NCBI RefSeq assembly: GCF_001282725.1
Contig: NZ_LN876584.1
Location: forward strand, 125,122 to 189,121
Length of the DNA: 64,000 nt
DNA from: Inediibacterium massiliense
Lineage (GTDB): Bacteria > Bacillota > Clostridia > Peptostreptococcales > Thermotaleaceae
Direction: 5' to 3'
In this document: positions 17,451-55,488 of the stretch, one piece after another
Layout: each line of letters starts with the position of its first letter
How positions within the stretch are numbered: the stretch's first letter is position 1
Made by a program: the position numbers and the translations under genes
The notes under the pieces: generated by a model
Seen by the model: the letters and a program-made list of their open reading frames with translations, nothing else
What the model was told of the DNA's origin: nothing
Databases searched by the model: none

Positions 17451-17664
17451 CTACTCTTTTTTTAAAGAATACAGTCTGCTGACAAACTATATTTTAGCAA
17501 AGTCATAAAAATAAGGAACAATTATTGAGAATTTGTGAAAATATAGAATAAGTGAGAAAATCATTAGCATTACACTGTTTGAGCATAGCGAGTTTGTAAG
17601 ACTATTTTCGATCGTTTCTTCATATTTTCCAAATTTGAAAATCAGTGACGTTTTTTATGACTTG
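17451..17664. repeat. dispersed repeat R1, copy 1, with flanking terminator duplicate
   Basis: The core 17499-17664 (AAAGTCATAAAAATAAGG ... GTGACGTTTTTTATGACTTG) is nearly identical to 55121-55287. The ends are inverted (GTCATAAAAA at both termini). Outer arms CAGTCTGCTGACAAACT (17472-17488) and, beyond the intron, GCTGTCTACAAACT (19576-19589) extend the inverted repeat. The element is bracketed by an 18-bp direct repeat, CTACTCTTTTTTTAAAGA, at 17451-17468 and 19590-19607. The second copy forms the BCCT terminator. Non-coding, MITE-like. Confidence 0.75.
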
Positions 17665-19575
17665 TAGAGTAAAATGGTGGATTTGATTTAATCTCTTCCA
17701 CCATCTCCTCATCAAACCGTACGTGAGGTTTTCCCTCATACGGCTTTCCGATGTTCTTCTTCCATCTGCATTACGAGTTTTTAAGCAACATATTTTAGGC
17801 CCATATCATTAAATCGACTTACTATTTCATAAAATTCTTTTCTCTTTCGTGCCTGTCTTTTGTTGTTAAACCAAATGACTAGCCGCTTTCTTATATATTT
17901 ATCAATCTTCACCAGTTTATTGAATGGTGACAATCCATAATAGTTTCGCCATCCTATAATCTTTCGATTTAATGTCTTAACCATTTCTTTACTAGAGACA
18001 TATAGGGTTTTCCTATCTAGAGTCTTCTTAACTTTGTCATATATTTTCTTTATTGATTGATTACTAATCCACTGGATAAGTGTATAGTAGATTCTACCAT
18101 CTATAGTCTTTGTCTTAACCTTACGATTATGAAACCCTAGAAAATCAAAACCTTCTTTTCCTTCCCATAAAGATATAATTTTCGTCTTGCTTTTATTTAG
18201 ATTCAATTCTAATCTTTGCATTATAAGGCTTATAGCTTTATGTGTATGTTTTACATCTTTATAGTTCTTGCAAACAACTACAAAGTCATCACAAAATCTA
18301 ATTAGTTTACCTAAATGCTTGTAATGTTTCTCCCATACCGTATCTAGGTAATCTAAGTAAATATTTGCTAGTAATGGAGATATCACACCTCCTTGAGGAC
18401 TTCCCAGTTCACTTTGAACAACTATCCCATCCTTCATTACTCCTGCTTCTAGCCATTTTCGTATAAGCTTAATTACTCTCCTATCACTTATTCGTCTTTC
18501 AACTAGCAGTAATAATTTCATATGATTTATATTATCAAAGTATCCTGATATATCTGCATCTAACACCCACATTCCTTTGTTATTACAAGCTCGCCTTATT
18601 TTATCAAGTGCTTGATGCTGATTTTTCTTAGGTCTAAATCCATAAGAACATTCCTTGAAATTAGCTTCAAAAACAGGTTCTATCACTATCTTTGTTGCTG
18701 TTTGTATTATTCTATCTTTTACTGTGGGAATTCCTAGAGGTCTTACCTTTCCATTATCCTTCGGAATTTCTTTTCTTAATACTGGTGGTGGATTATATGT
18801 TCCTTTTGATATTTGAATTTGTATTTCCTCTAATATCTTTTCTACCCCAATATCTTCAATGTCTGCTATAGTTTGTTCATCTACTCCTGCACTTCCTTTA
18901 TTAGTTTTGACTTGTTTCCATGCCTTCTCAAGTACATCTTTTCTATATATCTTATCGTATAAAGCATGAAACCTTCTGCTTTTATTACTCTTGGCTGATT
19001 GGTATAGTTTCCTTTGAAGTTGTCGAACTTTATCTATGGTGTCGTTAGTCTTTTGGACATTCACTCACTCTTACCTCCTCAGAAAACGTGAACAAAGTAG
19101 GGAACCTTTCCTAAGAATGGTTTTGTTGTCCATTCCATATTTGGTACTATGTTCCCCTCCGACTCCCTCCCTACTAGAATGTAATTTCACCTATCGGCTT
19201 ATATGCATCTGCTTTACAGCTATCGCTGTGTAAAGTAGGGTCTCCCCAGTTCCATAATTTACTTTCGATACATACCGCTCCCCATACACCAGAGGATTCT
19301 TCTGTGCTGTAATCCAAGTTCTTCACACATTCCATGGACTTCATCTTAAGACAAGAGACTCGTCTTCCTCTTTTCTCCCTAACGGGTTGAGATAACAGTG
19401 CTGCAGGATTCACTTTATGTTACGGTCTGCATCTTTGCTAGCACTACTAGAGCACATTTTCAAGACGCTTCAGTATTACCATCTCTGATAGCACTGGTCT
19501 TATAGCTACTAGGCTTCTTGGCAATTACCTAGACTGAACTTTCATCAGCAAGTAAATTACAGCTTCGCTGGGCAC
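17665..19575 (-). mobile_element. group II intron (about 1.9 kb) inside repeat R1
   Basis: Read on the minus strand, it begins GTGCCCAGCGAAGC at about 19575. It encodes a reverse transcriptase. It ends with a typical domain V (GAAAGCCGTATGAGGG ... CCTCACGTACGG, about 17712-17750) and a domain VI hairpin, finishing near TTTTACTCTA at 17665. The exons on either side are the two halves of an inverted-repeat arm of R1. The short size and the insertion beside terminator-like hairpins fit class IIC introns. Exact ends are uncertain by a few bases. The 500 bp between the RT gene and the 5' end are ribozyme domains I-IV, not coding. Confidence 0.85.
17781..19064 (-). CDS. ltrA: group II intron reverse transcriptase/maturase
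   Basis: A 427-residue intron-encoded protein. RT fingers/palm are at about 60-310, with KGSAGVDEQT, LGIPTVKDRIIQ, GFRPKKNQHQALD, the ELGSPQGGVISPLLANIYL motif, and the active site written FCDDFVVV instead of the common YADD. The maturase/X domain is at about 330-400 (GWRNYYGLS). There is no C-terminal HNH endonuclease. It promotes splicing and retrohoming of the intron that contains it. The start at 19064 is the first Met in frame; the region is inside the ribozyme, so a normal promoter is not expected. Confidence 0.93.
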   Translation of the reverse strand: MNVQKTNDTIDKVRQLQRKLYQSAKSNKSRRFHALYDKIYRKDVLEKAWKQVKTNKGSAGVDEQTIADIEDIGVEKILEEIQIQISKGTYNPPPVLRKEIPKDNGKVRPLGIPTVKDRIIQTATKIVIEPVFEANFKECSYGFRPKKNQHQALDKIRRACNNKGMWVLDADISGYFDNINHMKLLLLVERRISDRRVIKLIRKWLEAGVMKDGIVVQSELGSPQGGVISPLLANIYLDYLDTVWEKHYKHLGKLIRFCDDFVVVCKNYKDVKHTHKAISLIMQRLELNLNKSKTKIISLWEGKEGFDFLGFHNRKVKTKTIDGRIYYTLIQWISNQSIKKIYDKVKKTLDRKTLYVSSKEMVKTLNRKIIGWRNYYGLSPFNKLVKIDKYIRKRLVIWFNNKRQARKRKEFYEIVSRFNDMGLKYVA

Positions 19576-19589
19576 GCTGTCTACAAACT

Positions 19590-19611
19590 CTACTCTTTTT
19601 TTAAAGAGTAG
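19590..19611 (-). terminator. terminator of the BCCT gene, duplicated at 17451
   Basis: CTACTCTTT/AAAGAGTAG stem just 3' of the BCCT stop. Eighteen of its bases recur at 17451-17468 on the far side of repeat R1. Confidence 0.7.
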
Positions 19612-43952: not shown

Positions 43953-43966
43953 TTCACGAATAAAAA

Positions 43967-44002
43967 TAACCTTAGACAAGTTATATCAATGCCTAAGGTT
44001 AT
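43967..44002 (-). terminator. hairpin following site C
   Basis: 10-bp stem ATAACCTTAG/CTAAGGTTAT. The same hairpin follows site B (48739-48775) with almost identical loop sequence, and a diverged version follows rlmH itself (about 54525-54560). Confidence 0.7.
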
Positions 44003-44009
44003 AAACCAC

Positions 44010-44029
44010 ATCTACTTATGATACAGTTC
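44010..44029 (-). repeat. rlmH-end-like site C
   Basis: The minus strand reads GAACTGTATCATAAGTAGAT immediately 3' of the histidine kinase gene and 5' of the hairpin, the same order as at rlmH and site B. Confidence 0.6.
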
Positions 44030-48615: not shown

Positions 48616-48738
48616 TCTTTATTTCCACCCTTTCATAATCACTAACGAAAAAATTTATTAATTATTTCTTTGAGTTTATTATATAAAATAATAATCACAC
48701 ATAAAACTTACAGTTAATGAAAGGTTTGTAAATAAAAA

Positions 48739-48775
48739 ATAACCTTAGACAAATTATATCAATGCCTAAGGTTAT
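48739..48775 (-). terminator. hairpin following site B
   Basis: ATAACCTTAG/CTAAGGTTAT stem, loop nearly identical to that after site C. Confidence 0.7.
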
Positions 48776-48782
48776 AAACCTC

Positions 48783-48802
48783 ACTTACTTATGGTACGGT
48801 TC
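48783..48802 (-). repeat. rlmH-end-like site B
   Basis: The minus strand reads GAACCGTACCATAAGTAAGT, matching the real rlmH end (54568-54587) at 19 of 20 positions. No coding rlmH sequence precedes it. It separates the BceRSAB module from the toxin-antitoxin cassette. Confidence 0.7.
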
Positions 48803-48985: not shown

Positions 48986-48999
48986 GGAAGTAACAAAAA

Positions 49000-49114
49000 C
49001 GCTTCACAATGTGCGACAAAGAAACATTGTTGATACAAATGCGCTTCACGATGTGCGACAAAGAAACATTGTTGATACAAATACGCTTAACAATGTGCGA
49101 CAAAGAAACATTGT
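49000..49114 (+). repeat. 42-bp direct repeat array (2.7 units)
   Basis: Consensus starts CGCTTCACAATGTGCGACAA. Period is exactly 42 bp, with no variable spacers. Confidence 0.95.
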
Positions 49115-49155
49115 AAGAAAGTCCCAATGATTATCATTAGGACTTTCTTTTTTTC
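49115..49155 (+). terminator. terminator between antitoxin RNA and toxin gene
   Basis: AAGAAAGTCC/GGACTTTCTT stem (49115-49124 with 49140-49149) with an inner AATGA/TCATT pairing and a T-run. It limits read-through into the toxin, as in ToxIN loci. Confidence 0.9.
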
Positions 49156-54512: not shown

Positions 54513-54567
54513 TCACCAGCAAAATAACCCTAACCAAGTAATTTCAATGCTTAAGGCTAAAAATCTC

Positions 54568-54587
54568 ACTTATTTATGGTACGGTTC
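54568..54587 (-). repeat. rlmH 3'-end sequence (site A, candidate attachment site)
   Basis: The minus strand reads GAACCGTACCATAAATAAGT and encodes the last residues Glu-Pro-Tyr-His-Lys-stop of RlmH plus 4 bp beyond. Copies at sites B, C and D and partial copies A2 and C2 define the island. In staphylococci the equivalent sequence is the SCC integration site. Confidence 0.65.
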
Positions 54588-55049: not shown

Positions 55050-55073
55050 ATATCTACTCCTTTTCATTAAAAT

Positions 55074-55319
55074 AGACGAGGATTACCTCGTCTCAGACTA
55101 CAAACAAATTGCATTTTTACAAAGTCATAAAAATAAGGAACAATTATTGAGAATTTGTGAAAATATAGAATAAGTGAGAAAATCATTAGCATTACACTGT
55201 TTGAGCATAGCGAGTTTGTAATGCTATTTTCGAGTGTTTCTATATATTTTCCAAATTTGAAAATTTAGTGACGTTTTTTATGCCTTTGTTTACAAGAATA
55301 GACGAGGGTTTCCTCGTCT
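55074..55319. repeat. dispersed repeat R1, copy 2, with flanking duplicated hairpins
   Basis: Core 55121-55287 nearly identical to 17499-17664. It is bracketed by two copies of the same hairpin, AGACGAGG...CCTCGTCT, at 55074-55093 and 55300-55319. Lies between rlmH and the CxxH/CxxC gene. No coding potential. Confidence 0.75.
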
Positions 55320-55320
55320 A

Positions 55321-55488
55321 TTATACTACTAAATATTTAGGTACTTCATTACAATAATCACAATTATGTGGACTTGACCAATCTGTAAAAGATATTTTGT
55401 CTAATTCATATATATCTGGGGATTGTTCATAAACTTCCAAAAAATCATCAATTGCTTCTGATAAATGCTCTGGGCATACAACATACAT
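55321..55488 (-). CDS. CxxH/CxxC small protein
   Basis: A 55-residue protein: CPEH near the N-terminus (CxxH) and CDYC near the C-terminus (CxxC), with DKISFTDWSSPHNC between. This matches the CxxH/CxxC protein family found next to rlmH in Firmicutes. GGGAG lies before the ATG at 55488. Likely zinc-binding; function unknown. Confidence 0.8.
   Translation of the reverse strand: MYVVCPEHLSEAIDDFLEVYEQSPDIYELDKISFTDWSSPHNCDYCNEVPKYLVV

Follow-up and report, generated by a model that had tools for sequence, protein, structure and literature searches.

The focal repeat, copy 2 of a dispersed element that we call R1, lies on the forward strand at 55094..55296 of the window, i.e. the whole 64,000-nucleotide stretch of DNA that was analysed. 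Its left end is CAGACT... and its right end ...CTTTGTTTACAAG. On each side it is flanked by a hairpin: the left, gene-distal one, AATAGACGAGGATTACCTCGTCT, occupies 55071..55093, and the right, gene-proximal one, AATAGACGAGGGTTTCCTCGTCT, occupies 55297..55319. The right hairpin abuts the stop codon (55320-55322) of a 55-aa ORF on the minus strand, and the left hairpin together with its U-tract is located just before the ribosome-binding region of rlmH. Read in gene direction (minus strand), the stop codon is thus followed by a hairpin with no U-tract behind it, by R1, and by a hairpin that runs into the U-tract ATTTTAATG. The initial annotation had placed the two hairpins as AGACGAGGATTACCTCGTCT (55074-55093) and AGACGAGGGTTTCCTCGTCT (55300-55319) and had described the core as nearly identical to that of a first copy in the window; both hairpins were found as described, and the identity between the two copies is 91%. 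The matched flanks of copy 2 agree in 21 of 23 positions. Their loops differ (ATTA vs GTTT), and these differences most likely arose after the insertion, in the right copy.

The main part of copy 1 is situated at 17472..17663 (plus strand) and ends at the junction ...TATGACTT with a minus-strand group II intron (17664..~19577). This intron is about 1.9 kb long, carries a reverse transcriptase/maturase and splits the right end of the element. The remainder of this end, TGTCTACAAACT, follows at 19578..19589 on the plus strand. Paired hairpins are present at copy 1 as well, as had been claimed, but the right one, CTACTCTTTTTTTAAAGAGTAG, is found only beyond the intron, at ~19590..19611, and the left one, CTACTCTTTTTTTAAAGAATA (17451..17471), is partly decayed. 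The same right-end position (TATGACTT^TGTCTACAA) carries a group II intron in six copies of the host genome and serves it as a repeated landing site (window 17664-19577; C13:17264; C13:947988; C14:282464; C14:1508083; C14:1585555).

R1 is an element of about 203 bp that occupies, fragments counted, about 100 sites in the host genome (Clostridia, 3.5 Mb, 14 contigs). A sequence search with a 246-bp query gave at least 41 strong matches and a pattern search for the core gave 81 sites. From three whole contigs and copy-centred pieces of two more, 109 copies or fragments were chained, 79 of which possess both ends. The consensus extends from CAGACTGTTGACAAA... on the left to ...CTTTGTCTACAA on the right, and its ends, compared by eye, form short terminal inverted repeats (left tCAGACTGTTGACAAAG vs right, reverse-complemented, TGAGTTTGTAGACAAAG). 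Copy 2 folds as a long imperfect palindrome (z = -7.8) to which no ORF was assigned. The stems are strongly conserved, and a covariation test gave only 3-6 compensatory cells. Some derivatives of about 35-100 bp have lost the interior but keep both extreme ends and duplicated flanks.

The distribution of R1 is narrow. It is also present in Anaerophilus nitritigenes MJB2 (also spelled nitritogenes), the sole other genome of the genus compared, and as a family it is absent from the remaining 14 genomes compared within the taxonomic family, where the best matches were short (E ~1e-4). In a collection of genome contigs the core pattern had zero matches and the end pattern matched only Anaerophilus nitritogenes MJB2. 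Phages, plasmids and IMG/VR contained no relative of R1, apart from one contig that belongs to the congener's own prophage-like region. One R1 copy with a perfect hairpin duplication (L250:4043-4253) lies in a prophage-looking region of tail genes and is common to both Anaerophilus genomes. In Rfam, R1 had no match at the gathering score, and nothing credible fell on the element at a relaxed E-value.

In 51 of the 79 two-ended copies, R1 stands between two versions of the same site-specific, terminator-like hairpin, the sequence of which differs from locus to locus. The threshold for a match was the 99.9th percentile of the scores that left and right flanks of different copies give in all combinations; such mismatched pairs reach it about once in 1000, so the matching is far beyond chance. 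The matching segments are 13-33 bp long (median 23 bp, mean identity 95%) and start and stop at the R1 borders. The initial observation that the flanks agree within a locus and differ between loci hence extends from copy 2 to the family, and copies without matching hairpins are the minority. In six of the copies below the threshold, the right end is interrupted by a group II intron. When the intron was bridged, the duplication was recovered in four of five readable intron-split copies, including copy 1 of the window. By either test, direct or intron-bridged, 24 of the 79 copies have no clear duplication, whether through decay, interruption or another insertion mode. A few of the duplicated R1 sites are weak hairpins. 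In a scan of 0.81 Mb for duplicated hairpins at most 6 kb apart, seven of the 12 pairs belonged to R1; two of the other pairs were checked and are local tandem repeats, and a third lies within a tandem gene duplication.

The comparison with the congener reveals the state of these loci before insertion. Its rlmH site is empty of R1 and possesses a single hairpin (...GAAAATAGACGAGGATTACCTCGTCTATTATACTAC..., L251) that is identical to the left flank of copy 2. The flanks from both sides of R1 align to adjoining sequence there and overlap by exactly 23 bp. The insertion of R1 at this site, with duplication of the hairpin, therefore postdates the separation of the two species. At least five further loci are empty with one hairpin (C10:214119, C10:179186, C10:148555, C10:123586, C14:459289). 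At C11:242890 and C11:229426 R1 is present in both species, which indicates that insertion has been ongoing over time. The empty sites imply that R1 is mobile and non-autonomous and that its target-site duplication is the hairpin itself. They bear out the proposal that R1 targets and duplicates rho-independent terminators. The initial annotation had alternatively suggested gene-end units that bring their own pair of hairpins. As a rival explanation, this would mean that the entire unit is not an insertion but was duplicated, or was selected for a role in termination or mRNA stability. Such a unit would suit the position of R1 just behind stop codons and its fixed orientation, but it is refuted by the one-hairpin empty sites at orthologous loci, the focal one included, and by hairpins that differ in sequence at each locus; we regard it as practically untenable.

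The geometry of the duplication was measured on 43 reconstructed empty sites. The cuts are centred on the hairpin: the centre of the duplication deviates from the hairpin axis by 0.27 +/- 1.6 nt (mean and sd) and by no more than 2.5 nt in 40 of the 43 sites. Moreover, the length of the duplication tracks the span of the stem (r = 0.50, p = 0.001). This pattern would result if both feet of an extruded stem-loop were cut, and it would not result from an enzyme whose stagger is fixed and which prefers a certain sequence. R1 is a real, lineage-specific, MITE-like mobile element with an unusual target duplication that is set by structure.

R1 also has a preferred orientation towards the genes. In tandem gene pairs the two orientations occur 60:4, and a median of 28 bp separates the right end of R1 from the stop codon of whichever gene runs into it. 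The A-rich side, which corresponds to the U-tract, is the left of R1 (66% A). Decay has gone further in the proximal hairpin, which is devoid of the U-tract (21 vs 5, p = 0.0025); this would be expected if the distal copy alone were still functional. With respect to replication, 71 of 79 copies (71:8) are antisense to the leading strand. At convergent genes this bias is weak (9:4, p = 0.27), so that gene direction alone may explain it, and the two are not separable here.

The bias against the leading strand is nevertheless one of the points in favour of an insertion via single-stranded DNA at the replication fork, catalysed by an HUH/Y1 enzyme as in the REP/RAYT and IS200/IS605 systems; template slippage would then have copied the hairpin. 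Six Y1 proteins, each about 300 aa long, are encoded in the host genome, and both the element and its target are palindromic. However, the bias fades at convergent genes, and to our knowledge HUH transposition leaves no target duplication. The Y1 genes, moreover, have ends of the GGGACGGTTAA/TTAACCGTCCC type and no R1 nearby, and for this reason they were rejected as mobilisers of R1. Like REPs and REPINs, R1 is a palindromic intergenic repeat of high copy number, but the RAYT-like genes are not flanked by this same repeat. Overall, we consider this route quite improbable.

Another explanation that has to be weighed is that R1 is a retroposon, i.e. that its RNA, transcribed as part of the 3' UTR of host genes, was integrated into terminator hairpins by a reverse transcriptase, for instance that of a resident group II intron, and that target-primed synthesis produced duplications of variable length. 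The orientation of R1 (60:4) is tied to transcription, the duplications do vary between 13 and 33 bp, and two group II intron reverse transcriptases are encoded within the window. Some group II introns favour terminators, and several resident ones lie inside R1. On the other hand, R1 has terminal inverted repeats, and the hairpin axis marks the centre of its duplication. The internally deleted derivatives retain both ends, unlike the one-sided truncations typical of target-primed retroposition, and this favours transposition as DNA. Retroposition therefore appears unlikely to us. R1 is not itself a group II intron either, since it shows no ribozyme match and no reverse transcriptase; the separate introns merely insert into it. 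Group IIC introns are ribozyme/reverse transcriptase elements whose insertion sites are intrinsic terminators; their orientation there is fixed, and the target is not duplicated. R1 resembles them in target and orientation and differs from them by its target duplication, the absence of an ORF and the lack of an Rfam match.

In our preferred reading, R1 is probably a non-autonomous, MITE-like DNA transposon of the genus Anaerophilus that duplicates the hairpins of intrinsic terminators behind stop codons. Bacterial MITEs such as RUP and bcr1 are short, non-coding, palindromic and intergenic, occur in high copy number and possess inverted ends and a target duplication. R1 shares these traits: it is short and non-coding, with many near-identical dispersed copies in two species, it has terminal inverted repeats, and its target-site duplication is matched by empty sites with one copy of the target. 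What sets it apart is that the duplications of MITEs are usually short and fixed, whereas R1 duplicates hairpins of variable length, about 23 bp. Likewise, most bacterial transposons generate short duplications of a fixed length that is set by the enzyme; in R1, both length and position are set by the folded structure of the target.

As for the mechanism, a transposase acting in trans on the short terminal inverted repeats might join the 3' ends of R1 to the 5' feet of the target hairpin on both strands, while the hairpin is extruded into a cruciform or into single-stranded stem-loops. Gap repair would then leave a complete copy of the hairpin on either side of R1. The gene-distal hairpin would retain the original U-tract and stay a working terminator, and the gene-proximal one would lose its U-tract and drift. 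R1 itself would be transcribed within the host mRNA as a structured 3' UTR. The insertion would for this reason be nearly harmless, which could explain why about 100 copies are tolerated. With a hairpin left on each side, the gene presumably keeps a working stop signal, and R1 would exemplify a parasite that colonises terminators without destroying them and becomes a transcribed 3' UTR. The 60:4 orientation is not predicted by a symmetric DDE reaction by itself.

The closest known systems are IS1272 and TnSha1 of the IS1182 family, which target hairpins or cruciforms without specificity for the primary sequence, often at terminators just behind genes, and which either make a blunt cut within the stem or take the place of the hairpin, without target duplication (PMC4923244, PMC5678879). 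R1 too targets hairpins irrespective of their sequence, at terminators behind genes; IS1272 removes the hairpin, however, and R1 duplicates it (51/79 copies). In addition, R1 encodes nothing, and an IS1182 transposase was found in neither genome: PF05598 had no match in the host genome and NF033551 none in the host or the congener. The product of R1 is the one predicted by pathway b in Fig. 13 of PMC5678879, in which the 3' ends are joined at the 5' feet and the whole stem-loop is duplicated on both sides. This pathway was drawn as a hypothetical alternative, and the IS1272 insertions took the hairpin-removing one (PMC5678879). The initial statement that no named class has this signature holds insofar as IS1272 and the IS1182 family remove their hairpins; it has to be qualified by the duplicating pathway that was proposed on paper for IS1272. 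While there it is an alternative on paper, R1 provides dozens of natural products, and these, together with the orthologous empty sites, allow a direct test of the hairpin-foot model. The chances seem to us evenly balanced that R1 is moved by an enzyme that reads the shape of the DNA instead of its sequence and cuts at the feet of the extruded hairpin, and that with it the duplicating branch of structure-directed transposition is documented in nature on a large scale for the first time, a strategy that would be 'safe' in that the gene's stop signal is copied and insertion costs the host little. The duplicating product was unreported in the literature searched, which missed most subscription papers, so that priority is not certain.

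A transposase with ends like those of R1, which the initial annotation had suggested looking for, was not found. The ends of R1 are absent at both DDE_Tnp_1 loci, and a search of the whole genome for both ends, paired at no more than 3 mismatches, found no longer element that bears them. An IS110-type element at C11:77955 lacks hairpin flanks, and a composite element, considered for an amidase gene between two inverted R1 copies, was rejected. The autonomous partner of R1 may have diverged or been lost.

Several other repeats were observed. Another palindromic repeat, about 60 bp in length (TTCGCAAGCTCATGGCGCCAACGAAATC...CCGTTGCTTA; e.g. C10:123625-123684, C12:91917-91976 and C13:886946-887005), has 27 copies in the host sequence examined, 14 of them in or adjoining R1, apparently inserted at its A-tract. 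At 48993-49118 of the window, three tandem 42-nt units (ACAAATACGCTTCACAATGTGCGACAAAGAAACATTGTTGAT) match the Fusobacteriales-1 RNA of Rfam (RF02920, E = 4.6e-12), here in a genome of the Clostridia. The RAYT-like Y1 proteins (L233-L243; about 300 aa, 5-6 per genome) are bracketed by the GGGACGGTTAA / TTAACCGTCCC repeats. A dispersed repeat of 68 nt (AAAAATAACCTTAGACAAGTTATATCAATGCCTAAGG...) is present in the window at 43962-44029, 48735-48802 and 54520-54587, and in the congener it also lies near a Y1 transposase gene (L241).
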